Assembly: GCF_021021415.1 (NCBI RefSeq) | Contig: NZ_JAINWJ010000026.1 | Location: 1 to 61,005, forward strand | Length of the DNA: 61,005 nucleotides | Source of the DNA: Martelella mediterranea | GTDB lineage: Bacteria; Pseudomonadota; Alphaproteobacteria; Rhizobiales; Rhizobiaceae | Reading direction: 5' to 3' | Part shown: positions 22,521 through 45,736 of the stretch, piece by piece | How the letters are laid out: the number at the start of each line of letters is the position of its first letter | Position numbering within the stretch: the stretch's first letter is position 1 | Notes under the pieces: model-generated | Told to the model about the DNA's origin: nothing | Seen by the model: only the letters and a program-made list of their open reading frames with translations | Database searches by the model: none | Program-made: the position numbers and the translations under genes

Positions 22521-22544
22521 ACCCAAAATGAGGAGGAGGACCCC

Positions 22545-23516: not shown

Positions 23517-23525
23517 GCCAGACAA

Positions 23526-23587
23526 GTCGGGCAAGGACAGAGTTCGTGCCCGGCTTCCCGACGCATGCCTGCTTGCAGGCGAATGCG
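23526..23587 (+). terminator. Two hairpins after tctC1, the second with a T-run
   Basis: A first stem pairs GTCGGGCA (23526-23533) with TGCCCGGC (23547-23554), with one G-T pair. A second pairs CGCATGCCTGC with GCAGGC-(GA)-ATGCG at 23562-23587 and is followed by TTTT. This may be a terminator or attenuator that lowers expression of the enzyme genes downstream of the receptor gene. Confidence 0.5.
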
Positions 23588-23613
23588 TTTTGCCATGCTG
23601 CGGAGCTCTGCCA

Positions 23614-24672
23614 ATGTCAGACGAGGTAACTTTTTCAGCCGATCTCCTGCGTCGCTACGCGACTGATCTTTTCACGGCGGCGGGTCTTTCGGCGCAGGCG
23701 GCGGGGCGCGTTTCCGACGCCCTGATCGAGGCCGATCTTTCCGGGCGCGGTTCGCACGGGATGTTGCAGGCCGACAGGTATATCGAGCGGCTGATTGCCG
23801 GTGCGATGTCGATCGCCGACGTGCCACAGGTCGTCAGCCGAAGTCACGGCGCGATCGTGCTCGATGCCGATGGCATGGAAGGGCATCTGGTCGCCGAGGA
23901 TGCGATGAAATTGGCCATAGAAACGGCCCGTGAAACCGGCATTGCGGCCGTCGCGGTTCGCCGGGCGCAGCATATGGGCGTGGTCGGGCGTTATGTGCGC
24001 ATGGCCGCCGAGGCCGGCTGCGTGGGAATTGCCATGGGCAACACCAAGCCCGTAATGGCCGCCCCCGGCGGTGTGGAAAAACTCGTGGGCACCAATCCGC
24101 TTGCGATCGGCATACCGGCGACGCGTGAGGCGGTCGTGCTCGATATGGCAACCAGCGCGGGCACCTACGGCCGCATCCGGCAGGCAAACGCCCTTGGCCT
24201 GGATATTCCCGCCGGCTGGGCGCTGGATGCCGATGGCGTTGCGACCACGGACCCGGCGGAGGCGATGAAAGGATTGTTGCTGCCGGTCGGCGGCGCAAAG
24301 GGCTTTGCCCTGTCCTTCATGATCGACCTTCTCGCGGGGTTGTTGTCCGGCGGGGCCTGGGGAACAAAACTCGGCCTGATCGACGACAGCACCGTCGGAC
24401 CACAGATGTCGTCCTATCTTTTCATCGTGCTCGATATCGCGTCTTTCCGGCCACTTGAGGAATTCAAGGCGGAAGCGGACGAAGCGATCGCCGGGGTACG
24501 GCAATCGCAAAGGGCAGACGGCGTGGACCGGCTCTATACACCCGGTGAACGCAGCGCGGAACAGCTCGCGGCGAGCAAAGGTGAGATCAGGCTCGCCCCC
24601 GCCGTCGTAAAAGCGCTTGCCGAACGCGGCCGGCAACTCGGCATCACCGTGCCTGCAGAATTTCTGGAGTGA
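23614..24672 (+). CDS. Malate/L-lactate dehydrogenase family oxidoreductase (Ldh_2)
   Basis: 352 aa NAD(P)-dependent enzyme of the Ldh_2/DLG-DH fold, which acts on 2-hydroxyacids such as malate, lactate, 2,3-diketogulonate and ureidoglycolate. Catalytic histidine 48 is in RGSHGML. Other marks are DADGMEGHLVAEDAM, AVRRAQHMGVVGRYVRMAAE, TNPLAIGIPA and LDMATSAGTYGRIR. The ATG at 23614 gives the family N-terminus; the upstream in-frame ATG adds only a short cysteine-rich tail. The gene is followed after 6 bp by the hydro-lyase alpha gene. Confidence 0.87.
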   Translation: MSDEVTFSADLLRRYATDLFTAAGLSAQAAGRVSDALIEADLSGRGSHGMLQADRYIERLIAGAMSIADVPQVVSRSHGAIVLDADGMEGHLVAEDAMKLAIETARETGIAAVAVRRAQHMGVVGRYVRMAAEAGCVGIAMGNTKPVMAAPGGVEKLVGTNPLAIGIPATREAVVLDMATSAGTYGRIRQANALGLDIPAGWALDADGVATTDPAEAMKGLLLPVGGAKGFALSFMIDLLAGLLSGGAWGTKLGLIDDSTVGPQMSSYLFIVLDIASFRPLEEFKAEADEAIAGVRQSQRADGVDRLYTPGERSAEQLAASKGEIRLAPAVVKALAERGRQLGITVPAEFLE

Positions 24673-24678
24673 TGAGCC

Positions 24679-25548
24679 ATGACCATCGGCTACGACATCA
24701 TCAGGGAAACCGCTCGGACGCTGTATGATCGGGCGATCAAGCGCATTCCGGAAAATTCGAAGGCGGCGCTGGAGAACGCCCTCGAAACAGAAAGCTCGCC
24801 TTCTGCCCGCACGACGCTCGAATTCATGATCAAAAGCGCCCGCCGCGCCGAAGAGAAGTCGACCTATGTCTGTTCGGATGCGGGTTTTCCGGTCTATTTC
24901 GTCAAGATCGGCACGAACGCCCGGTTCGAGGGCGATATCAAGAGGGCGTTTGTCGATGCGTTCGACGAACTGGTGAGAACGATCGAGCCGCCGATCCTGA
25001 AATTCGTTACCAATCCGCTGACCGGCGAGCGCAGTTATCACGGCAAGGACATGCCGCATATCACCTGGGACTTCGTCTCGGACGACGATTGCATCGACAT
25101 CACCTGTTCGCCCAAGGCGCTTGGTTCCGGGCGCTGGGCCGCGCTGGAAATCTTCAGCTATCCCAGGCTTGAGGAGATCGAGCGCTATATTCTCGATGTT
25201 TCCATAAGGGCGGGATCGCAGCATTGCCCGCCGGTGGTCATCGGCGTGGGCATTGGCGGCTCCTTCGACCACGCGGCGAAAATGGCGAAACTGCAGACAT
25301 TGCGACCGTTCGGGACCACCAATCCTGAGCCAATCCTTGCCGCGATGGAGGAGCGGCTTACCCGCGCCGTCAACAAGACCGGATTCGGGCCGATGGGCAC
25401 CGGCGGCGACACAACCGCCCTCGGCGTTCACATCGATTACGCGTCCGGCCATGGCTTCACCCCCGTCGCGGTCTGTTTCAACTGCTGGATCAACAGGCGC
25501 ACCCGGGCGCGCATCGGCAATGACGGGGAGGTGCGCTATCTTGAGTGA
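24679..25548 (+). CDS. Class I hydro-lyase alpha subunit (L(+)-tartrate dehydratase / fumarase N-domain)
   Basis: 289 aa, the iron-sulfur domain of two-subunit fumarase/tartrate dehydratases. Candidate [4Fe-4S] ligands are Cys65, Cys183 and Cys266 or Cys269; the 65-to-183 distance is close to that in E. coli FumA. Other motifs are SPKALGSGRWAALEIF, PVVIGVGIGGSFDHAAKMAK and TGFGPMGTGGDTTALGVHID. Water addition or removal on a hydroxy-dicarboxylate is expected. It overlaps the beta gene by 8 bp. Tartrate, fumarate and mesaconate dehydratases cannot be separated by eye. Confidence 0.87.
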   Translation: MTIGYDIIRETARTLYDRAIKRIPENSKAALENALETESSPSARTTLEFMIKSARRAEEKSTYVCSDAGFPVYFVKIGTNARFEGDIKRAFVDAFDELVRTIEPPILKFVTNPLTGERSYHGKDMPHITWDFVSDDDCIDITCSPKALGSGRWAALEIFSYPRLEEIERYILDVSIRAGSQHCPPVVIGVGIGGSFDHAAKMAKLQTLRPFGTTNPEPILAAMEERLTRAVNKTGFGPMGTGGDTTALGVHIDYASGHGFTPVAVCFNCWINRRTRARIGNDGEVRYLE

Positions 25549-32820: not shown

Positions 32821-33199
32821 CGATTTTCCTCCCGATCGTGTTCGCCGCTCTTACGGGCGACCCTCCTGGCGGAGGGGCGAAACGCCCAACGGCCAAAGAT
32901 TGGATACATCTGTTAAAATAAAAATACAAGTGCATTTTGAGTGATGCATTCCTGTGGGAGCCGGAACAAGGACAGTTCAAAATCCTGCGCGGCCGTTATC
33001 AGCCAAAGACAGCTACCTGTGATTTGATGGCGATGCCTCCGGCGAGAGTTGGTCGTATTTGGGCGAACGATCACTGCGCGGAAAACGTTCGGCAGTTGGA
33101 GTGCCGGCGGCAGCCGAGACCAACAGGTTTGTGTGATGCCCCGGCCCGTTCGGGTTTTCCGCGTCGTGGTGCCGGCAGCGATGCGCTGTGACCAGCAGA

Positions 33200-33377
33200 A
33201 GCCGATCTCAGGACGAGCTCGGTGCTTTCCCATGTCACGCCAGGCGATCGCGATGGAGCGTTCATAGCCACACGCCGAGCAGATCTGGCCTTTCGGCCAA
33301 ACCATCGCTTCCACCAGACACCGACAACGCGCTTCGTCCGAGAACGCCTTCGTCATCTCGTCGACAGTTCGGATCAT
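33200..33377 (-). mobile_element. IS1595-family transposase N-terminal remnant
   Basis: The minus frame reads TVDEMTKAFSDEARCRCLVE and AMVWPKGQICSACGYERSIA. The F.DE..C...L....WP.G..C..CG pattern is the zinc-ribbon N-terminus of IS1595-type transposases. The downstream catalytic domain is not recognisable. Confidence 0.55.
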
Positions 33378-33474
33378 CAAAAGCACAGCCAGAACGTCGT
33401 CAGACGTCGAAACCTTCTTCAAAACCTGCCTGGAGAAGCTCATTTGAACAGAGGAAATGCAACGAATTGCTGTC

Positions 33475-33870
33475 TTTGGTTGATAAAGGCGCCTTGCACT
33501 AACGGCCAACAAAAAGCCGCACGCTTCAGTTTGTGGGCAGCCTTCCCTTTGTTCAGGCCAGCTTGGCAGCGTCTACGCAATGAAGGGCTTGAGAATACCA
33601 TTCAACAGCGTTCGCTCAATGCGGCCGATTTCTCATAGTGCTCTGGCCAGGTTGCTCGATTTCGAGGAAACCGAGAGCCTCTTGAGGTTTATCGAGGGTG
33701 CAACTGTGCGTGCCGTGACCGAGGTGGCCAGGCGCAGCCGTTGCGGAGCCGCTGTGCGAAGCGTTTGCCAATCAAGGCAAATAGCGCAAAGACATGATCG
33801 CCGGCGCCGCCGGTATCGGCAGAATGCTCATCGATTTCCAAAATCGTTTCGTGGTCAAAAAGCCCTTCGG
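33475..33870 (-). mobile_element. Tn3-family transposase (TnpA) C-terminal remnant
   Basis: One minus frame reads ILEIDEHSADTGGAGDHVFA then LFALIGKRFAQRLRN (about 33740-33845). Another further on reads LRRRCQAGLNKGKAAHKLKR (33520-33580). Both strings, in this order, are hallmarks of the Tn3 TnpA C-terminal domain (xDTGGxxDHVFAL..LG.rFaPRlRdl and RRRcqaGLNKgE). The sequence between them is degraded and frameshifted. Confidence 0.65.
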
Positions 33871-33959: not shown

Positions 33960-35153
33960 CTAATAGGCTTCGCGATAAAGCCTTGCTGCATCGGCTTCGT
34001 TAATTTCGGCGGGATTGTTGATCAGCAGGCGGGTCTGCTTCATCGCGTCACGCGCGAGCATTGGAATATCCTGCTCGGGCACATCTACATCCCGCAACCT
34101 GAGGGGGGCTCCGGACTGTTCCATCAGCCCCTGCATTGTTGAGACGAATTGTGCTGCGCGCGCATGGATGCCTTCATCCTTTGGCGCAGAGATCACATCG
34201 GCCAGTTCTGCATAAAGCGGCGCAGCGGCCGTCATATTGAAACGGAGCACCGGGCCCAGCATCAGGGCATTGGTCAAACCGTGCGGCAGATGATAGCGAC
34301 CGCCCAGCGGATAGGCCAGCGCATGCACCGCGCCGACAGGGCTGTTGGCAAACGCCTGACCCGCGAGAGTCGAGCCCAGCAGCATGGCCTCGCGGGCGAC
34401 GCGGTCGTCCCCGTGCGTGCAGGCCCTGATGAGATTGGCAGACATCAACCGAAGCGCTTCCCTTGCAAGAAGGTCGGAAACGGGATTCTTCTTGTGGCGT
34501 CCAGTATAGGCCTCGATCGCGTGGACCATGGCGTCGATCCCGGTCGCCGCCGTCTGCGGACGAGGCAATCCCACCGTCAATTCGGCGTCCAGCAAAACGC
34601 GGTCGGCGTAAAGCTGAGGCGCAACGATCCCCATTTTCTCGCTCTCGCCGGTGGTCAGGATGCTTATATTGGTCACTTCCGATCCGGTCCCCGCCGTCGT
34701 CGGTATCTGCACCAACGGAACCCGGCCGCCGGCGATTTTGCCGATGCCGTAGAGTTCCCCCAACCGCTGTTCGCTCACAAGCATGACCGCTGCGAGTTTC
34801 GCCACATCCATGGACGAACCGCCGCCCAAACCGACGACGATATCCGCCTCTGCGTCCCGGCCCCGGGCGAGGCAGTCCATCAACACGCTTTCAGGCGGAT
34901 CGGCGACGACCGCATCGAATATCGTTACCTTGAAACCGGATTCGCCCAGCGATTTCAGGGCGGGCGCGAGAAGGCCGGACTCGCGCAAAAACCGATCGGT
35001 CACGAGAAGCAGAGACCGCTGTGAAAACCAGTTGCCCAGAAGCGACCCCAGGCGTGACGCACCGCCCCATTCGAAGTGGAGCGCCGCAGGCGTATGAAAG
35101 CAGAACAATGCAGGTTCCATGACTATCTCTTGCGGGTTCGGGATTTTGTTCAC
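33960..35153 (-). CDS. Iron-containing alcohol dehydrogenase
   Basis: 397 aa, or 386 aa if the second methionine (35120) is used. NAD-binding GLGGGSSMDVAKLAA at about 107-121 and IPTTAGTGSEVTNISIL near 150 are family hallmarks. Metal ligands are the aspartate and histidine of GIDAMVHAIEAY, then VHALAYPLGGRYHLPHG. It oxidises or reduces an alcohol/aldehyde. It is the last gene of the minus-strand operon that includes the molybdenum reductase and tricarboxylate transporter, with 39 bp between, and probably acts on a pathway alcohol. Confidence 0.88.
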   Translation of the reverse strand: MNKIPNPQEIVMEPALFCFHTPAALHFEWGGASRLGSLLGNWFSQRSLLLVTDRFLRESGLLAPALKSLGESGFKVTIFDAVVADPPESVLMDCLARGRDAEADIVVGLGGGSSMDVAKLAAVMLVSEQRLGELYGIGKIAGGRVPLVQIPTTAGTGSEVTNISILTTGESEKMGIVAPQLYADRVLLDAELTVGLPRPQTAATGIDAMVHAIEAYTGRHKKNPVSDLLAREALRLMSANLIRACTHGDDRVAREAMLLGSTLAGQAFANSPVGAVHALAYPLGGRYHLPHGLTNALMLGPVLRFNMTAAAPLYAELADVISAPKDEGIHARAAQFVSTMQGLMEQSGAPLRLRDVDVPEQDIPMLARDAMKQTRLLINNPAEINEADAARLYREAY

Positions 35154-35192
35154 AGCGCGGGCCGTTGGCGCTGACGGCCGATACGTCGCGGT

Positions 35193-37490
35193 CTATTGGT
35201 TTCTGTCTTCAAGCACCACGATATCCGGCGGATCCAGCACGCTGACGGGCGCTGGCTCGGCGACAGGGCCGGAGAGGCTCACGAGGCAGGTTTGCGCCGA
35301 ACACCCCTGTGTCAGCGACGATGTGCCGCGATCCAGCGTCAGAACATTCGGGTTTCCGTGTCGCTCACCCCCTGCCCCGTCCGGATCGTACCAGGCGCCG
35401 GTCGAAAGCTTGAGCACACCCGGCATGATATCCGCCGAAACCCGGGCGCCGGCGAGCGCCCGCCCCCGTTCATTGCTGAGTTCGACCAGATCTCCGGTCA
35501 CGATGCCGCGCGCGGCGGCGTCTGCCTCGCTGATCATGACCGGCTCGCGACCGGCAATCTTGCCGGCCCGGCTGTGCGCGCTGGCATCAAGCTGGGAGTG
35601 GAGTCGGCGGGAAGGCTGGTCGGACAGCAGGTGAAGCTCGTCGGCTTCGGCCTCGCCAAGCCATTCCGCCGGCGGAAACCAGCTGGCGTGTCCAAGGCAG
35701 TCCGGCAGGTCGAAACCTGCGATCTTCTCGCTGAAGAGCTCGATTTTGCCCGACGGCGTCGGCCTTCTATGGGTCCCCGGGTCGTCCCGGAAGGCTTCCA
35801 TCATGACGGTCGGTCGCGCCTCGCGCGCGAGCAGGATCAACCCCTCCTCCCAGAAATCATCAAACGCCGGAAGTTGGCAGTCTTCGCCGACAAGCCGTTG
35901 GCGCGTTTGCTCGTAGATGTGGTGCAGCCAGTCGATCTCGGTGCGCCCTTCGCTGAAGGCTTCGGAGACGCCAAGCCTTTCGGCCAGCCCGCAGAAGATT
36001 TCATAGTCACTGCACGACTGCCCGAGACTTTGCGCGGCCTGTCGCATGGCAACGAGATGGCCTTCGCGGGTGGCAAAGCCAATATCATTGCGCTCCAGAA
36101 CGGTGTTGGCCGGAAACACGATGTCGGCGCGGCGGGCCGTCGGCGTCCAGTACTGTTCATGGACGATGATCGTCTCGGGTCGCGCCCAGGCCCGCTCCAG
36201 CCGATTGAGATCCTGATGATGATGGTAGGGATTGCCGCCAACCCAGTAGATCAGCCTGATATCGGGATAGCTGTGGGTTTGCCCCCCGTATTGAAACGGG
36301 CCGCCGGGATTTTCCAGCATGTCGGAGATCCGCGCGACCGGGATGAAGTCGCGGACCGGGTTCTTTCCCTGATCGAGCGTCGGACCGGGAACGGCCGCAA
36401 ACGGGCTGCCGAGCGCATTTGTCGTGCCGTAACCGAAACCAAAGCCGCCGCCCGGCAAGCCGATCTGCCCGACAATGGCGGCCAGCGTGACCAGCATCCA
36501 GCAGGGCTGTTCGCCGTGGCTTGCCCTTTGCAGCGACCACGCCATGTTGAGCATCGTGCGCGTACCCGCCATCTCGCGGGCAAGCGCCGCGATGCGCCCG
36601 GCCGCTACGCCCGAGATCGCCTCAGCCCATTCGGGCGTGCAGGGTTCACTCCCGTCACGCCCCATCAGATAGGCCTCCACCCGATCGAAACCGGTGCAGT
36701 GGCTCTGCAGGAAGGCCCGGTCATGCAGGCCTTCACGGACGATGACGTGGGCAATCGCCAGCATAACGGCGGTGTCGGTGTTGGGGCGTATAGGTACCCA
36801 TTCGGCCTCTGGAACATCGAGATTGTCGCGCACCGGGCTGAAATTGACGAACCTCACGCCGCGCTCCCGCATCGCCTGAACGCCGCTGCGGGTAAAATGC
36901 GTGCGCACCCCGCCGGGCGAGACCTGGGTGTTCTTGCGCGGGACTCCGCCGAAGGTCACGAATAGTTTCGTGTGTTCGGCCATCACGTCCCAGGTTGTGT
37001 GCTCCGCCATCAGCCCCTTCATCGGCCCGATGATATAGGGCATCAGCGCGTGGGCGGCGCCAAGGCTGTAGGTGTTGACGTGCGGCACGTAACCGCCGAG
37101 ACAGTTCATAAACCGGTGAACCTGGCTCTGTCCGTGATGGAAACGGCCCGCGCTGGCCCAGCCATAGGAGCCGGCGAATATCGAGGCATTGCCATGTTCA
37201 TCGATCACGCGTCTTATTTCGGCGGAAGCGAGATCGAGGGCCTCGTCCCACGGGACTTCGATCATCCGCTCGCCACCGCGGTCGCCGGGCTTTGCGCCCG
37301 GTCCGTTCTTCAGCCAGCCTTCGCGCACAGCCGGACGCTTCACCCGCAGGGCGCGCAGTTCGGGCTGGTCAAGATCGAGACCGATGCCCGCCGGGTCCTC
37401 ATCGCCGGCGAGTGGCCTGGCGCGCACCGAGCCTGAAGCGTCGGTGTCGATCTCGAAAATCCCCCAGTGCGATGAGGTGTAGCGTGGCAT
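35193..37490 (-). CDS. Molybdopterin-dependent S/N-oxide reductase (BisC/DorA type)
   Basis: 765 aa, DMSO-reductase family. The conserved AGSYGWASAGRFHHGQSQVH near 105-125 holds the serine that ligates molybdenum in BisC/TorA/DorA. NTYSLGAAHALMPYI, PGGGFGFGYGTTNALG and WVGGNPYHHHQDLNRLERAW bind the bis-MGD cofactor, and the C-terminal domain contains HSQLDASAHSRAGKIAGREP. No twin-arginine signal is present, so a cytoplasmic biotin/methionine sulfoxide-reductase-like role is likelier than a periplasmic one. The ATG at 37490 follows an AGGAAAGG site; the longer frame starts inside the neighbouring gene. Confidence 0.9.
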   Translation of the reverse strand: MPRYTSSHWGIFEIDTDASGSVRARPLAGDEDPAGIGLDLDQPELRALRVKRPAVREGWLKNGPGAKPGDRGGERMIEVPWDEALDLASAEIRRVIDEHGNASIFAGSYGWASAGRFHHGQSQVHRFMNCLGGYVPHVNTYSLGAAHALMPYIIGPMKGLMAEHTTWDVMAEHTKLFVTFGGVPRKNTQVSPGGVRTHFTRSGVQAMRERGVRFVNFSPVRDNLDVPEAEWVPIRPNTDTAVMLAIAHVIVREGLHDRAFLQSHCTGFDRVEAYLMGRDGSEPCTPEWAEAISGVAAGRIAALAREMAGTRTMLNMAWSLQRASHGEQPCWMLVTLAAIVGQIGLPGGGFGFGYGTTNALGSPFAAVPGPTLDQGKNPVRDFIPVARISDMLENPGGPFQYGGQTHSYPDIRLIYWVGGNPYHHHQDLNRLERAWARPETIIVHEQYWTPTARRADIVFPANTVLERNDIGFATREGHLVAMRQAAQSLGQSCSDYEIFCGLAERLGVSEAFSEGRTEIDWLHHIYEQTRQRLVGEDCQLPAFDDFWEEGLILLAREARPTVMMEAFRDDPGTHRRPTPSGKIELFSEKIAGFDLPDCLGHASWFPPAEWLGEAEADELHLLSDQPSRRLHSQLDASAHSRAGKIAGREPVMISEADAAARGIVTGDLVELSNERGRALAGARVSADIMPGVLKLSTGAWYDPDGAGGERHGNPNVLTLDRGTSSLTQGCSAQTCLVSLSGPVAEPAPVSVLDPPDIVVLEDRNQ

Positions 37491-37524
37491 CGCGCCTTTC
37501 CTTTCCTGACCTTCAGGCCCTGTT

Positions 37525-38709
37525 TCAGGCCGTGACCTCAAGTTTCGGCGAACGCTTCAGAACATCGTCGTTGAGCGAAATGCCGAGCCCCGGCGTATCG
37601 GGAACATCGAAATAGCCGTCGCGGGGCTGCAGGTCGATATCGCAGAGTTCGACATTGTAGGCCTTCATGGCATGGCTGTGGTGCTCATGGATCAGGAAGT
37701 TCGGGATCGCCGCCTCAAGATGCAACGAGGCCGCTGTCGCCACCGGGCTGCCGCAGACGTGAACCTGCACGGTCACGTCATAGATATGCGCGTAGTCGCA
37801 CATCTTCTTGGCTTCGGTGAGACCGCCCACCAGTCCGATGTCGGGCTGCAATACCTCCAGGCTCTGCTCTTCGAGATAGGGTCTCACGCCCCAGCGGGAG
37901 AAGATCCGTTCGCCCGCCGCCAGCGGTATCGTCGTGCGCCCGGCGACATAGGACTGCATGCGCGAATTGGTATAGCTGACCGGCTCCTCGAAATAGTAGA
38001 TGCCGAATTCCTCAAGCGCCTCGATGAGCTGCACCGCGGCAGGACCGCTTGTCAGACTGTGCACTTCGAGAATGATTTCTCCCTCCGGCCCCAGCGCCTC
38101 GCGCACGGCCGCCATGCGGTCGCGGAAAAGGTCAAGTTGCGACCGGGTGAAATAGGTGACATGGCGGTCGAGGCGGTTGCCTTCGGCATCCATGTTGATC
38201 GGGTCCACCTTGACGCAGGTGAAGCCCTGCGCGCGGGCAGCGCTTGCCGAGCGGCCATAATCCTCGGCCGAACCAAGCTGCAGATAGGTGTCGCCCCAAC
38301 CGAGTTGAAGCTGGCTGGCATAGGTGCGCAGGCGATCACGCGTCTTGCCGCCCAGAAGCTGGTGGCAGGGCACGCCGAGCGCCTTGCCCTGGATGTCCCA
38401 GAGCGCGGTATCGATTCCGCTCAATCCGGCGAGGACATGAGTGTTTGCGGACTGTCCCCAGAAACTGCCGCGATAAACGTTCTCCCACAAAGCCTCGCGA
38501 CGCATCGGATCGGCGCCGATGAAGAAACGTTCGGCAATTTCCCGTGCCGCCTGCGCTCCGGCCGCATGTCCGATACCATAGGCCAGTCCGACCTCGCCGA
38601 CGCCGGTCAGGCCTTCATCAGTATGGACGCGCACCAGAACCGGGTGCCACGGGATCGCGATCCCGTCGGGCATCTGGACATCGAATATTTCCACCTTGCT
38701 GATTTTCAT
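37525..38709 (-). CDS. Enolase-superfamily sugar-acid dehydratase-like protein
   Basis: 394 aa mandelate racemase/galactonate-dehydratase-like enzyme. VGLAYGIGHAA and NVYRGSFWGQSANTHVL belong to the capping domain. Barrel residues are KVDPINM (about 168), the metal ligands EVHSLTSG, YFEEPVSYTN and AAGERIF, and histidine in QVHVCGSPVA near 325. It lies at the 3' side of tctA2 with 4 bp overlap and precedes the molybdenum reductase. Galactonate, mannonate or an unusual acid could be the substrate. Confidence 0.8.
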   Translation of the reverse strand: MKISKVEIFDVQMPDGIAIPWHPVLVRVHTDEGLTGVGEVGLAYGIGHAAGAQAAREIAERFFIGADPMRREALWENVYRGSFWGQSANTHVLAGLSGIDTALWDIQGKALGVPCHQLLGGKTRDRLRTYASQLQLGWGDTYLQLGSAEDYGRSASAARAQGFTCVKVDPINMDAEGNRLDRHVTYFTRSQLDLFRDRMAAVREALGPEGEIILEVHSLTSGPAAVQLIEALEEFGIYYFEEPVSYTNSRMQSYVAGRTTIPLAAGERIFSRWGVRPYLEEQSLEVLQPDIGLVGGLTEAKKMCDYAHIYDVTVQVHVCGSPVATAASLHLEAAIPNFLIHEHHSHAMKAYNVELCDIDLQPRDGYFDVPDTPGLGISLNDDVLKRSPKLEVTA

Positions 38710-40220
38710 GGGCGGGCACCTTTTCTGGAAGAATTGAAGGAACGCAGATAGCGCAGGAGCGGGACCACAATGGCGACCAGCGTCAGGGCGAGGATCACCG
38801 CGGAAAAGGGTCGGGTCACGAAGGGCAGATAGGAACCTCGGCCGTATTCGAGGGCGAGGCGCAACTGCTCTTCGGCCATCGGGCCAAGGATAATGCCCAG
38901 AATCAGAGGCAGGATCGGAAAGCGCGCCACCCTCAGGCCGTAGCCAAGAACACCGAACGCCAGCAGCGTGTAGACGTCGAACATGCGGTTGTTCAGGACA
39001 TAGCTGCCAATGACGCAGAGCACGAAGATGACCGAGACGATATACTGCGTGGGGATCGTCAACACCCGGATGATCGTGCCGATCAGCAGATGGTAGAAAA
39101 TGGTGCAGAACGCGAAGGACACGAAAAAGGCGACAAAGATGAATGCAACGTAATCGCCGTTCATCACGAACAGCAGCGGACCGGGTTCGACATTGTGGAG
39201 CATCAGCGCCGACAGCAGCATGAGCGTCGAGGCATCGCCCGGAATGCCCAGCGTCAGCATGGGAATGAGGGAACCTCCCATCGAAGCGTTGTTGGCCGCC
39301 TCCGGCGAGACGATTGCCTCGGGCAGTTCTCCCGTCCCGAACTTCTCAGGCGTCTTCGAACTCGCCCGCGCCTGGCTGTAGGCCAATATATTGGAGAGAC
39401 CCGGGCCTACGCCCGGCAGGATTCCGATACCGATGCCGATCAGCGTGGAGCGCAGCAACGCCCATTTCACGCTCAGAACCTCTGTAAAGGCGCGCGCGAA
39501 CTCCGGCAGTCTGAAAGCCGTTTGCAGCCGGTTCACGGTCGCGCCGATGCGGTCCGTATCGAGAATAAGCTGCGGCAGCGCGAACGCACCGACCAGAGCA
39601 GGCAGAACATTGATGCCGCCCTCGAAAGCGGCAACGCCGAAACTGAACCGGGACGCGCCGACGCCGGTCGAATAGCCGATCATCGACAGACACACGCCAA
39701 ACATTGCGATGGCCACCGCCTTGAGCGTGTCGCCCTCCGAAAGGCTGGCAATGGTGAGGAAGGTGAAGATAACGATTGCGAAGTATTCCCACGGACCGAA
39801 TTGCATCGCGAAACGCGACAGGGCGGGCGCGATCAGCACCAGCGCCAGACCGCTGATGACGCCGCCGATCATCGAGGCGTAGACGCCGAGACCGAGCGCG
39901 CGGGAAAGCTGCCCCTTCTTGGCCATCGGATAACCGTCGAGACAGGTCGCGGCCGCGGCCGGCGTGCCTGGAATGTTGAGCACGATCGCCCCGACCAGGC
40001 CTCCCGAGATGGCGCCGCAATAGACGCCCATCAGCAATCCGATGGAGGATTCGAAATCCATCGTGAATGTCAGCGGCACCAGCAGCGCCAGCGCCATGGT
40101 TGATGTGAGGCCCGGGATGGAGCCGATGACGAGACCAGCCGCCACGCCGGCCGCGATCATCACCAGCAGCATGGGATTTGCCGCCAGATCGCCGAGGGCC
40201 GAAAAGATATAACCGCTCAT
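38706..40220 (-). CDS. Tripartite tricarboxylate transporter large permease (TctA), system 2
   Basis: 504 aa. The signatures GLVIGSIPGLTSTMALALLV, YCGAISGGLVGAIVLNIPGT, GILPGVGPGLSNILAYSQAR and EAANNASMGGSLIPMLTLGI match TctA. The YCGAISGG motif departs from YYGAxYGG of system 1, so the two systems are not recent duplicates. It lies 10 bp after tctB2 and overlaps the dehydratase start by 4 bp. Confidence 0.93.
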   Translation of the reverse strand: MSGYIFSALGDLAANPMLLVMIAAGVAAGLVIGSIPGLTSTMALALLVPLTFTMDFESSIGLLMGVYCGAISGGLVGAIVLNIPGTPAAAATCLDGYPMAKKGQLSRALGLGVYASMIGGVISGLALVLIAPALSRFAMQFGPWEYFAIVIFTFLTIASLSEGDTLKAVAIAMFGVCLSMIGYSTGVGASRFSFGVAAFEGGINVLPALVGAFALPQLILDTDRIGATVNRLQTAFRLPEFARAFTEVLSVKWALLRSTLIGIGIGILPGVGPGLSNILAYSQARASSKTPEKFGTGELPEAIVSPEAANNASMGGSLIPMLTLGIPGDASTLMLLSALMLHNVEPGPLLFVMNGDYVAFIFVAFFVSFAFCTIFYHLLIGTIIRVLTIPTQYIVSVIFVLCVIGSYVLNNRMFDVYTLLAFGVLGYGLRVARFPILPLILGIILGPMAEEQLRLALEYGRGSYLPFVTRPFSAVILALTLVAIVVPLLRYLRSFNSSRKGARP

Positions 40221-40230
40221 GATCCTTGCC

Positions 40231-40707
40231 TCATCCGCCCAATGTCATTTCAGGGAGAAAGCTCTCCAGCCCGTAGACCACCACGAGATAGACGAACGCC
40301 GTTACCGCAACCGCGACCGATGCGGAGATCACGAGGGATCGCGCATCGCGTTTACCCAGAAGGAATGCGGTCACCGTCATGAAAATGACCGAGGAGAGCA
40401 TGAAACCGAGCGATCCGAAGGCCAGAACGAAAAGGACGGCGGCGACAAGGAACAGTACGCGCCGGCCGCTGAAAATCTCGCCCCAGGCGGGAATGTACTG
40501 ATCAGCGAAGCGCTTGCTCCAGACGACGGAGCGGATCAGCAAAACCGCGAACAGGGCAAGCGTGGCCACGATGAAGACCATCGGAATCGTGCGCGGCGAA
40601 TAGAACTGGCTGACATTCGTGGCGCTCTGGATCTGCGGCAGTTGCGCCGCCAGCCCGAGCACGAGCAGGGTAAGCCCGCCCGTTATCAACAGGTCGATGG
40701 ATTTCAT
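40231..40707 (-). CDS. Tripartite tricarboxylate transporter small membrane subunit (TctB), system 2
   Basis: 158 aa with four hydrophobic segments (LLITGGLTLLVLGLAAQLPQ at the start, then MVFIVATLALFAVLLIRSVV). YSPRTIPMVF replaces the usual F.P...P motif. It partners TctA in the inner membrane. It sits between tctC2 and tctA2, 94 bp after the tctC2 stop, a gap occupied by two strong hairpins. Confidence 0.82.
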   Translation of the reverse strand: MKSIDLLITGGLTLLVLGLAAQLPQIQSATNVSQFYSPRTIPMVFIVATLALFAVLLIRSVVWSKRFADQYIPAWGEIFSGRRVLFLVAAVLFVLAFGSLGFMLSSVIFMTVTAFLLGKRDARSLVISASVAVAVTAFVYLVVVYGLESFLPEMTLGG

Positions 40708-40733
40708 GAGTTTTTCCCGAGTGATCTGACGAC

Positions 40734-40784
40734 CGCCGCCGCATGGTCACGGCGGCGATGAGAGAGCCGCGCTCGGCGCGGCTC
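40734..40784 (-). promoter_or_regulatory. Tandem intercistronic hairpins after tctC2
   Basis: CGCCGCCG/CGGCGGCG (40734-40757, 8-nt loop) and GAGCCGCGC-TCG-GCGCGGCTC (40764-40784) are perfect stems between tctC2 and tctB2. No U-run. Likely stabilisers of the receptor message. Confidence 0.65.
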
Positions 40785-40800
40785 GCGCTTCACGCTCGCG

Positions 40801-41769
40801 TCACTGGACCGAGTACTTCTTTATCAGATCCTTGTAGACCTTCATCTCGGCCTCGTTATAGGCCTCCACTTCGGCGGCATCCTTGTACATCGCCTGAAAG
40901 CCCTTTTCCTCGAGCGCCGCGGCACATTCCTCGTCAGTGGCGGCCTTCTCCCAGGCCTCTCGCAGGACGTTCAGCGCTTCTTCAGGCGTGCCCTTGGGCG
41001 CCCAGGTAATGATGTTGACGCCGTAAGAGACGTCGACGCCCTGCTCCTTGGCGGTCGTCGCGTCAGGCATCTGCTCGACGCGTTCGTCGGCGAGTATGGC
41101 GATGGGCTTGAGCTGACCGGCCTCGATGTAAGGCTTGGCGGTCGCGAGATCCATTGTGGCAAGGTCTAGATTGCCCTGAAGGATGGCCACCACGCGGTTC
41201 TTCGATCCGGCGAGGCCGATAATCTGTGTCTGAGCGATATCCATGTCGTCCGCTTCCATGACGATCAGGGATGCGAAATGCGAGAGCCCGCCGAGCGCCG
41301 CACCGACCTTCAGCTCGCCCGGATTTTCGGCGATATAGGCCTTCATGCCGGCAAGATCGTCGAACGGAACGTTGGCGTTTGCGAACACGCCCCATGGACC
41401 AAAGGCCGCCTGGGCCACCACGTCGTAATCGGAGGGCGCGTGTTCTGTCACGCCGCGGGCCGAAAGCGCATGCAGCGACTGATGCTGCCACAGCAGCTTG
41501 TAGCCCGTCGGACGCTCCTTGACGACGGTATCTTCGGCGACGGCACCCGCACCGCCCGTGATATTGCGGACGAGAACTTTCTCCGGAAGCACCTTGTCGA
41601 GGCAGCCGGCGAAAACACGCGCGGAAATATCGGACCCGCCGCCCGGGGCATAAGCCGCAATCAGCTCGATCGACTTGTCGGGGAATGTTTGCGCACCCGC
41701 CATCGGCGCCGTCATGGCCACCGCCGCTACCGCGACCGTGGCGCTCAGGGTTTTCACTTTAGTAAACAT
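40801..41769 (-). CDS. Tripartite tricarboxylate transporter substrate-binding protein (TctC/Bug family), system 2
   Basis: 322 aa periplasmic receptor. Signal peptide to about residue 26 (VAVAAVAMTAPMAGAQ). Bug family features: IELIAAYAPGGGSDISARVF, VRNITGGAGAVAEDTVV, GELKVGAALGGLSHFASL and GLAGSKNRVVAILQGNLDLA. GGAGGAGACCC precedes the ATG. It is the first structural gene after the regulator in the minus-strand operon. Confidence 0.9.
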   Translation of the reverse strand: MFTKVKTLSATVAVAAVAMTAPMAGAQTFPDKSIELIAAYAPGGGSDISARVFAGCLDKVLPEKVLVRNITGGAGAVAEDTVVKERPTGYKLLWQHQSLHALSARGVTEHAPSDYDVVAQAAFGPWGVFANANVPFDDLAGMKAYIAENPGELKVGAALGGLSHFASLIVMEADDMDIAQTQIIGLAGSKNRVVAILQGNLDLATMDLATAKPYIEAGQLKPIAILADERVEQMPDATTAKEQGVDVSYGVNIITWAPKGTPEEALNVLREAWEKAATDEECAAALEEKGFQAMYKDAAEVEAYNEAEMKVYKDLIKKYSVQ

Positions 41770-41828
41770 GGGTCTCCTCCCTTTGTTGTTTTGATTGAGC
41801 TGCTCCCTCAGTCCGAAACATCGGCGCC

Positions 41829-42539
41829 CTAGCGCTTCTCTTCTCCCGTTTCGGACTGAATGACTCCGGTCTCGTAAGCCGTCTCGAAAGCGCGCGAGGT
41901 GTGCTGCATCAAGGCCTGCGCCAGCCGCGCGCCATCACCGGCGCGGATGATGTCGATGATTTCTCCATGTTCGGCGTTGGAGCGCTCCTGACGCTCCTGC
42001 GTGCGCTGGCCGATTGCGAAACAGAGATAGATTCGCATCTGCAGGTTCATGGCGATCTCGCAGAGCACGGCGTTGTTGCTTGCCTCAATGATAGCCTCGT
42101 GGAAACGGCGATTGATCTTGGCCCATCCCAGCATATCGCCAGCTTCGCACAGACGGCCCATTTCCTCGTGATGGCGTTCGATCTCCGCCAGTTGCGCCTG
42201 CGTGATCCGCTCCACAACCTGCACGGCCATCTTGTCCCACAGCCAACCCATGACCTCCACAAGCTCTCCAGCTTCGCGCGCGTCAGGCAGACTCAGAACG
42301 GCTCCGGCATTCGGGCGGGTTCTCACGAGGCCGCGGGCGGCGAGCATCTTTATCGCCTCGCGCAACGGCGTGCGCGATACGCCTAACACGTCGCTCAGCG
42401 CCTTTTCGGTCAACCGGTCGCCGCCGCGAAGCTCGCCGGTGGCGATCAGGTCGTTGATCATCTCGACCACCCGTTCCGGGAAAGGAGTCACCTGCATTTC
42501 AGCAAGTGTGGAAAGCCCATTATTACCGCTCATCGCCAT
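41829..42539 (-). CDS. GntR-family regulator (FadR/FCD type)
   Basis: 236 aa from the ATG at 42539. The winged HTH covers about 18-80 (PERVVEMINDLIATGELRGG, then LGVSRTPLREAIKMLAARGL). The FCD domain has NRRFHEAIIEASNN near 135. A longer open frame runs into the operator repeats and is rejected. It reads away from the plus-strand cysteine-dioxygenase-like operon, and the two TTGCATACAATAT palindromes lie between them, so it probably represses both directions and itself. Confidence 0.88.
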   Translation of the reverse strand: MAMSGNNGLSTLAEMQVTPFPERVVEMINDLIATGELRGGDRLTEKALSDVLGVSRTPLREAIKMLAARGLVRTRPNAGAVLSLPDAREAGELVEVMGWLWDKMAVQVVERITQAQLAEIERHHEEMGRLCEAGDMLGWAKINRRFHEAIIEASNNAVLCEIAMNLQMRIYLCFAIGQRTQERQERSNAEHGEIIDIIRAGDGARLAQALMQHTSRAFETAYETGVIQSETGEEKR

Positions 42540-42567
42540 GATTGCCTGCCCGCCTCTCAATTGCATA

Positions 42568-42614
42568 TTGCATACAATATACGTACATGGTAATGGATTG
42601 CATACAATATGCAA
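42568..42614. promoter_or_regulatory. Two operator-like palindromes in the divergent promoter
   Basis: TTGCATA-CAA-TATGCAA (42598-42614) is a perfect 7-3-7 inverted repeat. A second copy, TTGCATACAATAT then ACGT (42568-42583), starts exactly 30 bp earlier with an imperfect right arm. The spacing equals about three helical turns, so two dimers would sit on one DNA face. The location between the GntR gene and the divergent operon, and the FadR-family preference for short palindromes of this length, support an operator pair. Confidence 0.7.
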
Positions 42615-42639
42615 CAGCTTTTTTTGAGTGGAGGATAAA

Positions 42640-43218
42640 ATGAGTGTGGAACAGAACCGTCACGCTGAGGTCGCCAAGACCATCGCCAGGGTCCGCGCGA
42701 TCTGCGGATCCGGTGACATGAGCCGCGACAAACTGGGGCAGATCGAGGAAGTGCTGCTGGAACTCGCCGCGCGGCAAGACCTTTTTCCCGATAGCGAATT
42801 CGGAATCCCGACGGACGAAAAAATTCGCCTCTATCGCCTGGCCGAAGATCCAGACGGCGGCTTCGCGCTCTACCTTCACGCGGCCAATGTGCCTGCCGAA
42901 GTCGCTCCGCATAATCACGCGACCTGGGCCGCCATCGCCGGCATTGGAGGAGAGGAGACGAATTTCCTCTATGAACGGACGAATGGCGATGCACCGGTTC
43001 TCACCGGCCAAAGGCCAATCCGAAAAGGCGAGTCGATCTCACTCATGCCCGACGATGTGCATTCCATTCGCGCAGGGGGAACGGAACCGCTGAAGAACCT
43101 GCATCTTTATGGCCTCGCCATGGAAAAGCTTCACGATCGCGAGTTCTGGGACGCCAAGCGCGCAGTGTGGACCAGGGTGCCGCCGACCTCCGGCATCATC
43201 GAGCGGAGGTCCGCATGA
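42640..43218 (+). CDS. Cysteine-dioxygenase-like cupin (thiol dioxygenase)
   Basis: 192 aa. The cupin iron site has His91 and His93 in PHNHATWAAIAGIGGEE and His141 in DDVHSI, with Tyr157 in HLYGLAMEKLH; all occur in the CDO_I family of non-haem iron thiol dioxygenases (cysteine, 3-mercaptopropionate). It would oxidise a thiol to a sulfinate with O2. GGAGG lies six bases before the ATG at 42640; an ATG 12 bp upstream has no ribosome site. It overlaps the rhodanese gene by 4 bp. The exact thiol is unknown. Confidence 0.85.
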   Translation: MSVEQNRHAEVAKTIARVRAICGSGDMSRDKLGQIEEVLLELAARQDLFPDSEFGIPTDEKIRLYRLAEDPDGGFALYLHAANVPAEVAPHNHATWAAIAGIGGEETNFLYERTNGDAPVLTGQRPIRKGESISLMPDDVHSIRAGGTEPLKNLHLYGLAMEKLHDREFWDAKRAVWTRVPPTSGIIERRSA

Positions 43219-44822
43219 CCCAGCGTATGACCGCTACAGAGGTTCGCGATCTGGCCGCACGCGGCGGAGAATACGCATTGCTGGATATGCGCGAGGAAGG
43301 CGATTTCAGCGAGAAGCGCCTTATGCTGGCCTCCTGCCTGCCGCTCAGCCGGCTGGAGCTGCGCGCCCGCATGCTGGTTCCACGACTCTCGACGCCTCTC
43401 GTCATCATGGATGGCGCCGGCGAGGGACTTGCGGAAGTCGGCGCAGAGCGGCTCTCGGCGCTCGGCTACGAAGACATCGTCATCCTCGACGGCGGCGTTG
43501 CGGCATGGGAAGCTGCGGGACTACCTGTCTACAGCGGCGTCAATGTTCTGACAAAGGCCTTCGGGGAGGTCATTCACCGCCAGTGCGGCACGCCTGACAT
43601 AACCGCCAGGGAACTCAAGGACTGGATTGATGACGGCAAGGATCTCGTCATTCTGGATGCGCGCCCTTATGCCGAATATCACGAGCATACCATTCCCGGA
43701 TCGCTCTCCGTCCCGGGCGCGGAACTGGCGGCCCGCGCGGCGGAACTGGCCCCCTCGCCGGATACCACTATTGTCGTCAATTGCGCAGGCCGGACCCGCT
43801 CCATCATCGGTTGTCAGTCCCTGATCAATGCGGGTCTGCCCAACAGGGTACACGCCCTGCGCAACGGTACGATGGGTTGGAAACTGGCAGGCTTCAACCC
43901 GGAAACCGGGGCAACGCGCAATGCAGCCGCAAGTGAAACGCTCGACGCCGACGCGCTGCGCCATCGCGCCCGCAATCTGGCGGAAAAATTCGACGTGACG
44001 ATGCTCAACCCGCAAGACCTCGCAACACTGAAGGCGCCCGGAGACCGCAACGTCTATCTGTTCGATGTGCGCACACCCGACGCGTTTTGCGCCGGGCATG
44101 TGGCGGGCAGCGTGAACGCCCCCGGCGGACAGCTGGTGCAGGCCATGGATGACTATGTGGCCGTGAGAAACGGCATTGTCGTCCTGGTCGACCCGTTGCT
44201 CATGCGGGCGGTCATGACGGCCTCCTGGCTCAATCAGGTGGCCCAGTGCGAAACCTATGTCCTCGATCCGTGTCCGCCGCTTGGCGAAACCGGCAAGCCG
44301 GAATCGGCCGTCCTCAACTTGCCGGCGATATCCCGCATGACAGTTGCCGATCTGGCGGAACAACGGCGCACGAATGCGAGAACGGCAGTCGTTGACTATT
44401 CCGTTTCTGTTCGCCATCGCGAGGGCCACATTCCGGGCGCCTTCTGGGCGGTACGAGGACGTGAAGCCGCTCTTGCCGCGACCCTGGGCCCCGTCGACCA
44501 GATCGTGCTGACCGGCGAAGATGCGGATCTGTTGCAACTTGTCGCGCCCGAGATCGCGCAGGCAACCGGTGCAGTTGTTGCCTGCCTCGATGGCGATGTG
44601 AAGGCCTGGAAAGACGCGGGCCACCCGGTCGAAACCGGAATGACAAAGCCAATCGGTCCGGTGAATGACGTCTGGTACAAGCCTTTCGAGCTGGATGACC
44701 CGCAAGCCGAAAAAAAAGCGGCCGAAGCCTATCTGGACTGGGAGGTCGAGCTGACCGAAAAGGTCGCCCGCGACCTTGTCGATTTTCGTCCGATGACCGT
44801 TGCAGGAAAGCAGGCAAGATGA
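43215..44822 (+). CDS. Protein with four rhodanese-like domains
   Basis: 535 aa made of four consecutive rhodanese-like units (about 1-110, 120-240, 255-370, 385-500), each starting with a LLDMRE, ILDARP, LFDVRT or VVDYSV strand and a GH/GS-type motif. Only unit 2 keeps a sulfur-carrying cysteine, VNCAGRTRSI near residue 190; the others have VIMDGAGEG, VLVDPLLMR and VLTGEDADL at that loop. It should move sulfane sulfur, probably from the thiol handled by the neighbouring dioxygenase. It is translationally coupled to both neighbours. Confidence 0.83.
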   Translation: MTQRMTATEVRDLAARGGEYALLDMREEGDFSEKRLMLASCLPLSRLELRARMLVPRLSTPLVIMDGAGEGLAEVGAERLSALGYEDIVILDGGVAAWEAAGLPVYSGVNVLTKAFGEVIHRQCGTPDITARELKDWIDDGKDLVILDARPYAEYHEHTIPGSLSVPGAELAARAAELAPSPDTTIVVNCAGRTRSIIGCQSLINAGLPNRVHALRNGTMGWKLAGFNPETGATRNAAASETLDADALRHRARNLAEKFDVTMLNPQDLATLKAPGDRNVYLFDVRTPDAFCAGHVAGSVNAPGGQLVQAMDDYVAVRNGIVVLVDPLLMRAVMTASWLNQVAQCETYVLDPCPPLGETGKPESAVLNLPAISRMTVADLAEQRRTNARTAVVDYSVSVRHREGHIPGAFWAVRGREAALAATLGPVDQIVLTGEDADLLQLVAPEIAQATGAVVACLDGDVKAWKDAGHPVETGMTKPIGPVNDVWYKPFELDDPQAEKKAAEAYLDWEVELTEKVARDLVDFRPMTVAGKQAR

Positions 44823-45736
44823 ACGCGCACCGGGTTCCGCTTCTGTGTCTGATCGACCTGCCCGCAGAGGCGGTCTCGGCCCTGCGGGAGCGCTATGAGC
44901 TGCTTCGACCCGAAGACGGTGTGCCCGATAGCTGCCGCGGCATTATCACCGGCTATGGCGGAAAAGTGGACGCGACCCTGCTCGCGCGCTACCCGAACAT
45001 CGAGATCATCGCATGTTTTACGTCAGGCCGGGACATGGTTGATACCGAGGCGGCTTCCAGGAAGGGTATCGATGTCGTCTCGAACGGTGCGGCGCTGGCC
45101 GGATCGGTCGCTGATCTGGCTGTTGCCTTGATGCTTGCCAGCGCGCGTGAACTGCCCGCTCTCGATGCCCATGTCAGATCCGGCCGATGGCGTGAAAGAC
45201 GCTACCGCCCAGGCATACTTCTTTCCGGGCAGCGGCTCGGAGTCGCGGGCTACGGGGCAATCGGCCAGGGGATCATCCGCCGCGCGATGGCCTTCGGCAT
45301 GGAGGTGGCGACGTTTACGCGGCGCCCGCCGCACGACAATTTTGTCCGGCATTTCAGCGATCTCAAGACTATGACGACCTGGGCCAACTGGCTGGTGCTG
45401 GCCTTGCCGGGCGACCCCTCGACCGACGGCATCGTGAACGAGGACGTGTTGAAGGCGCTGGGACCCGAAGGCACACTCATCAACATCGGACGTGGTTCTC
45501 TTGTTGACGAAGCCGCCCTCATCAGGATGCTCGAGACGGGTGGAATAAGAGGCGCCGCACTCGATGTCTTCGAAGATGAGCCGACGCCGAATCCCGCCTT
45601 CGCCAAGCTTGCAAACGTCATCCTTTCTCCGCATCAAGGCGCAAACACATCCGCCGCGCTTTCGCTCAGAAGCAAAGCCCTGCGTGAGATGCTCGACGAC
45701 AAATTCCAGGATGCTGCGGGCAAGCAGAATTGCTGA
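44819..45736 (+). CDS. D-isomer-specific 2-hydroxyacid dehydrogenase
   Basis: 305 aa. The NAD(P) fold is marked by GVAGYGAIGQGIIRRAMAFG at about 141-160. The catalytic arginine is in NIGRGSLVDEAAL (about 228), glutamate in FEDEPTPNP and histidine in LSPHQGAN near 285. It interconverts a 2-hydroxy acid and a 2-oxo acid. The start overlaps the rhodanese stop by 4 bp. In this operon a mercapto-hydroxyacid or its oxo form is a reasonable substrate, but this is inference. Confidence 0.88.
   Translation: MNAHRVPLLCLIDLPAEAVSALRERYELLRPEDGVPDSCRGIITGYGGKVDATLLARYPNIEIIACFTSGRDMVDTEAASRKGIDVVSNGAALAGSVADLAVALMLASARELPALDAHVRSGRWRERRYRPGILLSGQRLGVAGYGAIGQGIIRRAMAFGMEVATFTRRPPHDNFVRHFSDLKTMTTWANWLVLALPGDPSTDGIVNEDVLKALGPEGTLINIGRGSLVDEAALIRMLETGGIRGAALDVFEDEPTPNPAFAKLANVILSPHQGANTSAALSLRSKALREMLDDKFQDAAGKQNC

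Follow-up and report, generated by a model that had tools for sequence, protein, structure and literature searches.

Gene Content of the Locus

The stretch of DNA considered here, referred to as the window, comprises 61,005 nucleotides of Martelella mediterranea (positions 1 to 61,005 of contig NZ_JAINWJ010000026.1, assembly GCF_021021415.1). Between positions 33960 and 45736 open reading frame (ORF) listing and profile searches identify ten genes, of which seven lie on the minus strand and diverge from three on the plus strand, with two operator-like sequences in between. These features, and their likely start codons where these differ from or specify the ORF ends, are:

33960..35153, minus strand, iron-containing alcohol dehydrogenase (ADH; PF00465/PF25137); likely ATG start at 35120
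35193..37490, minus strand, BisC/dimethyl sulfoxide (DMSO) reductase-type molybdenum enzyme (Molybdopterin and Molydop_binding Pfam domains); likely ATG start at 37490, ORF open to 37541
37525..38709, minus strand, enolase-superfamily (MR_MLE) enzyme, dehydratase-like and candidate C-S lyase (PF13378/PF02746)
38706..40220, minus strand, tctA, large permease subunit of a tripartite tricarboxylate transporter (TTT; PF01970, 442 bits)
40231..40707, minus strand, tctB, small TTT permease subunit (PF07331)
40801..41769, minus strand, tctC, TTT solute receptor (PF03401); N-terminus signal-peptide-like by eye
41829..42539, minus strand, GntR/FCD regulator (PF00392 and PF07729); likely ATG start at 42539, ORF open to 42614
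42567..42578, no strand, operator-like copy 1, ATTGCATACAAT
42597..42608, no strand, operator-like copy 2, ATTGCATACAAT, 30 bp from copy 1
42640..43218, plus strand, cupin of thiol-dioxygenase fold with a three-His iron site (PDB 8vni, E 1e-31, TM score 0.88); likely ATG start at 42640
43215..44822, plus strand, four-unit rhodanese with a Cys loop in unit 2 only (Rhodanese Pfam; PDB 1yt8, E 1e-114)
44819..45736, plus strand, enzyme of the D-2-hydroxyacid dehydrogenase family with an NADP(H)-like fingerprint (PF02826/PF00389)

The Pfam matches of the nine genes other than the cupin are all above cut-off, and the cupin is recognized by its phmmer match to 8vni and by its fold; the ten genes are thus present with the families and strands claimed in the original prediction, which had been made from the DNA letters alone. 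The 4-bp overlaps that it described at the plus-strand junctions are also there, both of them ATGA (at 43215 and 44819). The likely start codons of the cupin and GntR genes are separated by a gap of 100 bp, and a scan of positions 42400-42800 for sigma-70 promoters and terminators found none.

Conservation of the Divergent Locus and Its Control Region

The island is regarded as more than a chance assembly because nine or ten of its genes, their divergent order and the twin operator recur in two other genomes. Relatives were sought by scanning genome contigs with a cupin alignment, which returned 458 of them; the best 79 loci were kept, a selection that leans to the nearer relatives. Contig L025, from a metagenome-assembled genome (MAG) of the Hyphomicrobiales (G583), carries nine of the ten genes, with BisC, enolase, TctA, TctB, TctC and GntR on the minus strand and cupin, rhodanese and ADH on the plus strand, at identities to the window proteins of 41% (TctB) to 80% (enolase). 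A search of the family to which this MAG belongs was positive in 2 of 30 genomes, the MAG included, and added a third genome (G586) in which the locus is divided between two contigs. L166 contains BisC (cut), enolase, TctA, TctB, TctC and GntR diverging from cupin and rhodanese (cut), and L224 opens with the final 141 bases of L166 and continues with rhodanese, hydroxyacid dehydrogenase (48% identity) and ADH. All ten genes are present in G586 when both contigs are combined, and the divergent order is kept; in both G583 and G586 the ADH gene lies on the plus side, in contrast to its minus-strand position in the window.

These genes have been inherited together at considerable sequence distance, with identities to the window proteins of 32-80% across both relatives. 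The enolase-type enzyme is 80% identical in L025 and 76% in L166, and TctA 75-76% in both; TctC stands at 64 and 61%, GntR at 63 and 62%, TctB at 41 and 32% and ADH at 49% (L025) and 54% (L224), and BisC is 67% identical to the L025 copy. Over the minus-strand genes and the cupin, L025 and L166 share 44-82% identity, by which measure they are related without being near copies. The ten-gene set is also rare. Within the window's genus, a search of 13 genomes at the chosen thresholds recovered the enolase gene from one, the window's own; at E ≤ 1e-60 it was found in 6 of 385 genomes of the class (own included, next best 47%), and at E ≤ 1e-130 in the MAG alone among 397 genomes of the MAG's order. 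At most four candidates per genome were scored in the class and order scans, and at most five in the BisC scan described below, so that misses are possible. Family counts suggest that the MAG's order is not that of the window. Cupin matches occur in 11 of 199 genomes of the window's family, own included, the best other being 35% identical.

Conservation extends to the shared control region. All three divergent promoters contain two operator-like copies of ATTGYATRCAAT, with 0-1 mismatch and 29-31 bp apart: the GntR-cupin interval of the window carries ATTGCATACAAT twice, at a distance of 30 bp, that of L025 ATTGTATGCAAT and ATTGTATGGAAT (31 bp), and that of L166 ATTGTATGCAAT and ATTCCATGCAAT (29 bp), the second copy of each of the latter two having one mismatch to ATTGYATRCAAT. 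When the three promoter regions are aligned, conservation is concentrated on both operator-like blocks. When one mismatch is tolerated, two matches are found in the 61-kb window, both at the island, versus 0.19 expected; two matches were reached in 3 of 100 whole-window shuffles and in none of 200 shuffles of L025. Mononucleotide shuffling of the three promoter regions produced a pair with a spacing of 29-31 bp in 0, 1 and 0 of 20000 cases. The exact core is present at four places in the 5.4-Mb genome, two in the island and two on another contig (C18). The pair on C18 (L159, 5396-5512) has its copies 105 bp apart, at a gene of GntR/FCD appearance that is divergent from TRAP-transporter-like genes and near a sulfatase-like gene (families assigned by eye).

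A regulator gene accompanied by conserved operator-like sites in the promoter region between two gene groups is the arrangement of a divergent GntR/FCD regulon. The pair most likely serves this GntR as its operator, in a position from which binding would control both operons, and from the twin copies in all three divergent promoters it follows that the two halves are probably one GntR regulon. The single island claimed at the outset, for which conservation of the divergent arrangement had been named beforehand as a check, is thus borne out in two more genomes together with a shared operator pair.

The Cupin and Its Distance From Mercaptosuccinate Dioxygenases

The cupin has no match in Pfam or NCBIfam. 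Among PDB entries, phmmer retrieves the mercaptosuccinate dioxygenase (Msdo) 8vni at E 1e-31 and, weakly, 3-mercaptopropionate dioxygenases (3MDO; E 4e-4). Its AlphaFold model (pLDDT 95.6, pTM 0.91) gives Foldseek TM scores, among the matches listed, of 0.88 to 8vni, 0.73-0.83 to 3MDO chains and 0.63-0.75 to cysteine dioxygenase (CDO) chains, and the predicted structure is accordingly of the thiol-dioxygenase fold (CDO/3MDO/Msdo). Residues H91, H93, H141, H155, Y157 and R167 are invariant in 27 sequences. In 3MDO, three His residues are the iron ligands, Tyr159 is part of a SHY motif and the carboxylate of the substrate is bound by Arg168 (PMC8050391); read from alignments, R167 of the cupin would correspond to Arg168. 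Such a protein would oxidize a thiol to the sulfinate in an O2-dependent reaction.

Since Msdo is the best match of the cupin in both sequence and fold, the locus could be a pathway for mercaptosuccinate (or its S-conjugate), in which the cupin acts as Msdo and the resulting sulfinosuccinate yields succinate and sulfite. TTT carriers transport dicarboxylates, and Msdo genes also adjoin rhodanese genes (PMC5373536). In a tree of the 109 cupin sequences left after removal of fragments that were short or interrupted by stop codons, of identical sequences and of three duplicate copies, the ten sequences with the Msdo signature nevertheless form a separate clade (support 0.923) with the window cupin outside. 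The window, L025 and L166 cupins form a clade of their own (support 1.0), while the next node, which places it among the other branches, has a support of 0.29. Of the signature arginines, that of QARY is present in 10/10, that of YGR in 8/10 and that of MRPGK in 5/10 members of the Msdo-signature clade, and all three are found in 8vni, which is absent from the tree and whose residues were read from an alignment. The window, L025 and L166 cupins lack all three, and have LYRL/LFRL, AN..A.V and YGLA/YGFA instead. The gene context differs as well: in the published loci, Msdo is accompanied by genes for a rhodanese and for a cystathionine beta-lyase (PMC5373536), whereas the island has the adjacent rhodanese but no pyridoxal phosphate (PLP)-dependent lyase among its ten genes. 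Moreover, Msdo has no need of an enolase-type enzyme or of an S-oxide reductase. Because the cupin lies outside the Msdo clade, mercaptosuccinate, a test compound named in the original prediction, is not favored, and a mercaptosuccinate pathway is judged quite improbable; the substrate of the cupin is presumably another thiol.

The Rhodanese and the Cupin-Rhodanese Module

The rhodanese had been described as a four-unit protein. It aligns with the four-unit structure 1yt8 over nearly its full length, but the Cys loop (NCAGRTRS at 189) is present in unit 2 only, the presumed equivalent place in units 1, 3 and 4 being occupied by DGAGEG, VDPLLM and TGEDAD. The same unit-2 Cys loop is found in 1yt8, and the thiol dioxygenase of Pseudomonas aeruginosa (PDB 3uss/4tlf) has the same fold as the window cupin (TM 0.80-0.83). 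PA2602 and PA2603 are, we assume, the adjacent thiol dioxygenase and rhodanese genes of P. aeruginosa, from which 1yt8 presumably also comes; to our knowledge, this pair has no enolase, BisC or TTT partner.

The association of both proteins was followed in 82 cupin loci, which are the 85 loci L019-L103 without three that had no cupin match at the E-value used, and which represent the nearer relatives. A rhodanese gene lies at most 1.5 kb downstream of the cupin in 74 of them, and in 17 of these 74 the two are fused in frame (e.g., L099, L086 and L054); the eight loci without a downstream rhodanese include L063, in which it is upstream, and L088. The cupin-rhodanese pair is a module of wide occurrence, put to a special use in the window island. 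Both the adjacency and the fusions would also suit a unit for handling persulfides, analogous to the known fusions of persulfide dioxygenase (ETHE1) with rhodanese but built with a cupin, in which the dioxygenase oxidizes a persulfide, the rhodanese moves sulfane sulfur, and sulfur arrives as sulfane sulfur and not as a thiol. Characterized members of the cupin family oxidize thiols, however, the known persulfide dioxygenases are of a different fold, and the island has no evident source of persulfide, all of which makes such a unit very improbable.

Transport, Reductase, Enolase-Type and Dehydrogenase Proteins

The presence of TctA, TctB and TctC together identifies a tripartite tricarboxylate transporter. 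The best model for the BisC-type enzyme is TIGR00509, at 884.8 bits and below its cut-off of 1017.55 (next model 609.9), and alignment with the DMSO reductase 1eu1 (E 1e-182) includes SYGW at 125, an active-site motif of the DMSO-reductase type with the residue that binds molybdenum. No export signal is seen by eye at its N-terminus, and the protein may be a cytoplasmic enzyme of the S-/N-oxide reductase kind. The enolase-type enzyme has both MR_MLE Pfam domains and the conserved acidic/His motifs of the superfamily (EVH, QPD and VHVCG), which have catalytic roles; its nearest PDB entries (2gl5, 4e6m and 2o56) are all named putative dehydratase/racemase only, and its score with the galactonate dehydratase model NF010624 (245.7) is below the cut-off of 311. 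The iron ADH carries the motifs of its family, which serve in metal binding, and the sulfoacetaldehyde reductase SarD model NF050025 gave 267, below its cut-off of 700. The fingerprint of the 2-hydroxyacid dehydrogenase is of the NADP(H) type, which goes with the reductive direction and suggests that the enzyme works reductively. Of the "oxidation island" of the original prediction, the thiol-dioxygenase cupin thus remains, whereas the BisC step is probably reductive and the dehydrogenase fingerprint suggests reduction too.

With the window proteins as queries, TctA-like matches occur in 4, TctC-like matches in 11 and BisC in 4 of the 82 cupin loci. The BisC-bearing loci are L020, L021, L025 (the island itself) and L088, the last without rhodanese. 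In L020 an operon-like run comprises cupin, rhodanese, BisC, a GST-family gene, TctA, TctC and an arylmalonate-decarboxylase-family gene, and in L086 a row of GntR, TctC, a small gene at the TctB position and TctA ends in the fused cupin-rhodanese. Cystathionine beta-lyase genes (TIGR01324 above cut-off) are present in L019, L021 and the Aminobacter plasmid L145, and an AstE/AspA-type deacylase gene in L021 and L145. By crude arithmetic (1.26 Mb around the cupins, a 4-Mb genome assumed) about 0.1 BisC-bearing loci would be expected versus the four observed, a comparison affected by the many cupin loci that lie outside the window's class. Viewed from the reductase, BisC was found at 46 places in 190 genomes (~0.24 per genome). 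Leaving aside the window's own, 45 places remain, of which 20, in genomes of the class, were opened, five of the stretches being shorter than 19 kb owing to contig ends; an ADH- or hydroxyacid-dehydrogenase-like match was present in four. The idea that BisC generally accompanies the cupin was rejected, as the excess is seen from the cupin side only and none of the 20 shows it from the BisC side. Eight opened plasmid BisC loci have varied gene settings, and the neighbors of the closest free-standing BisC (L201, 61%) comprise nine ORFs with three Pfam matches (DUF465, Lactamase_B and Ribul_P_3_epim), nothing telling among them. A BisC relative at 57% lies directly downstream of, and on the same strand as, a gene of the PF01212 beta-eliminating lyase family (L202, 8942-12475). 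In Agrobacterium pAt15955 (L153) a BisC-type gene is found among urocanate hydratase, histidine ammonia-lyase and amidohydrolase genes and a betaine-type ABC importer, a setting that we would take to be ergothioneine- or hercynine-like catabolism, perhaps.

Relatives of the enolase-type enzyme at E ≤ 1e-60 are encoded on 13 plasmid records, of which eight were opened; BisC lies near in three (L141, L143 and L225), without this cupin. L143 (Methylobacterium nodulans) and L225 (Sinorhizobium chiapasense) resemble the window in combining an enolase-type enzyme (46-47%) with BisC (46%), and additionally contain a C-S lyase of the PatB/MalY type (PatB-family above cut-off in L143, annotated MalY/PatB in L225). 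They differ from it in that an amino-acid ABC importer and this PLP-dependent C-S lyase take the place of the TTT, the thiol cupin and the rhodanese. A number of legumes are rich in S-(2-carboxyethyl)cysteine and its sulfoxide (PMC9414067); such compounds are a plausible kind of substrate for islands of this sort, and L143 and L225 possibly serve the use of legume S-oxide amino acids.

The Sporomusa plasmid L142 has an operon that is similar in part and combines an enolase relative (50%) with TctA (34%), TctC and GntR, and no cupin. It also carries galactarate-dehydratase-like (UxaA-like) genes below cut-off; a reading of this pair as sulfolactate lyase was dropped, though not disproved, the sole NCBIfam match being galactarate dehydratase at 34.9 and 242 bits versus 730.85. 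The L142 arrangement speaks for the possibility that the island consists of two co-regulated but chemically separate modules, namely a sugar- or hydroxy-acid pathway (TTT, enolase-type dehydratase and dehydrogenases) and a cupin-rhodanese pair for thiol/persulfide detoxification, with BisC repairing oxidized metabolites. The promiscuity of BisC in its neighborhoods fits such a division, and so does the spread of the cupin-rhodanese pair, near which BisC, TctA and TctC are found so seldom. Yet nine or ten genes and the twin operator-like sites have stayed together in three genomes at the identities given above, cupin and rhodanese head one of the two operons, and no KDG-type aldolase is among the ten genes. 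Two separate modules are therefore considered rather unlikely.

Surroundings of the Locus

The G+C content of the cluster is 0.619, versus 0.616 and 0.606 in the flanks, and base composition gives no sign of a foreign origin. Beside the ADH end of the cluster, a fragment at 32913-33512 has a weak match to the IS1595 transposase zinc ribbon (23.3 bits, cut-off 25.4) and is a possible trace of mobility. The window contains a second TTT island at 19806-25548, with TctA (19806-21314), an Ldh_2-type dehydrogenase (23590-24672) and a fumerase-family gene (24679-25548), perhaps for the use of tartrate or malate. In the MAG, a zinc alcohol dehydrogenase gene (L025, 8-1234; class III-like by eye) lies just past BisC, and a link to formaldehyde or glutathione is possible.

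Proposed Pathway and Its Relation to Known Systems

A regulon for organosulfur acids is proposed because the thiol dioxygenase fold, the rhodanese, the TctC-family importer and the S/N-oxide-reductase-like enzyme all point in this direction. On balance, we somewhat favor the view that all ten genes belong to a single catabolic regulon under the control of GntR, which would serve a carboxylate containing sulfur; a thioether or the S-oxide of one is the most likely substrate. The organosulfur-carboxylate theme of the original prediction is retained in these four components, while the substrate stays, as it was there, an inference. In the proposed route, TctC would capture the acid and TctAB import it, after which the cytoplasmic BisC-type enzyme would reduce the S-oxide (or N-oxide) to the thioether. 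Cleavage of the C-S bond would give a thiol and an oxo or hydroxy acid; the cupin would oxidize the thiol to a sulfinate, from which sulfite would be released, and the single Cys-bearing unit of the rhodanese would deal with sulfane sulfur or sulfite. The hydroxyacid dehydrogenase and the iron ADH would dispose of the carbon fragments.

Several observations weigh against this regulon. No sulfite oxidase or desulfinase is found among the ten genes, and TctC, the enolase-type enzyme and ADH have no NCBIfam match above cut-off. The hydroxyacid dehydrogenase was not found in L025, its best match elsewhere in the MAG genome being 40% identical, and G583 and G586 belong to one family and are not fully independent of each other. 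The 20 opened BisC neighborhoods contain no match to the window cupin, rhodanese, enolase or Tct proteins, and the cupin differs from the Msdo clade at positions with a possible role in substrate binding.

The protein that cuts the C-S bond is a further point. Enzymes of the enolase superfamily abstract the alpha-proton beside a carboxylate, which is followed by loss of the beta-group. Because this general chemistry fits and profile searches find no PLP-dependent C-S lyase among the ten genes, the enolase-type enzyme is a C-S lyase candidate. It could be a PLP-independent lyase that removes the alpha-proton of a 3-(organylthio)-2-hydroxy acid and, with the thiol rather than water as leaving group, yields pyruvate and the thiol used by the cupin, the S-oxide being first reduced by BisC and the 2-hydroxy acid being made from the 2-oxo acid by the hydroxyacid dehydrogenase. 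Against this, L143 and L225 encode a PLP lyase in addition to their enolase relatives, and the EVH, QPD and VHVCG motifs are largely common to putative dehydratases; this specific scheme is held to be unlikely. If true, it would be a new pathway, one that parallels the cysteine-S-conjugate beta-lyase route in deaminated form.

Parts of the proposed regulon resemble systems described before, as far as the accessible portions of the reports go. In Variovorax paradoxus B4 and Advenella mimigardefordensis DPN7, the Msdo cluster has its thiol-dioxygenase cupin next to a rhodanese, as in the island, and serves a sulfur-containing carboxylic acid, as proposed for the island; the Advenella cluster likewise has a dedicated regulator and an importer nearby. 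The latter differs in that these are a LysR regulator and an amino-acid ABC importer, accompanied by cystathionine beta-lyase, and in Variovorax B4 a molybdopterin oxidoreductase has been proposed for sulfite oxidation. The accessible text describes no enolase, GntR/TTT or divergent twin-operator layout for the Msdo clusters, whose signature is absent from the window cupin (PMC5373536). The catabolism of 3,3'-thiodipropionate and dithiodipropionate shares with the proposed route a TctC for a thioether dicarboxylate, required for 3,3'-thiodipropionate uptake (PMC8102459), the cleavage of the thioether to a thiol and a 3-mercaptopropionate dioxygenase. It differs from it in that the sulfinate is CoA-activated and then desulfinated and that two enoyl-CoA hydratases are required; the accessible parts of these sources mention no BisC or enolase (PMC6370202, PMC8102459, PMC5373536), nor, in PMC6370202, rhodanese or sulfoxide. 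Sub-modules of the island, i.e., Msdo with rhodanese and C-S lyase, and TctC with thiol dioxygenase, are thus already known. A literature search found no system with the ten-gene set (enolase plus BisC, twin GntR-type sites), although subscription literature was mostly beyond reach, so that absence from print is not established. It also found nothing pairing a biotin sulfoxide reductase with a thiol dioxygenase and, by title and abstract start, nothing on point about C-S or thioether lyases of the enolase superfamily.

In all, a discrete regulon of this kind ties an enolase-superfamily enzyme and a BisC-type reductase, members of families rich in unassigned substrates, to thiol oxidation. Identification of the substrate would give functions to several orphan proteins together, and could reveal how bacteria recycle oxidized thioether acids, for example legume S-oxide amino acids or the deaminated forms of these.

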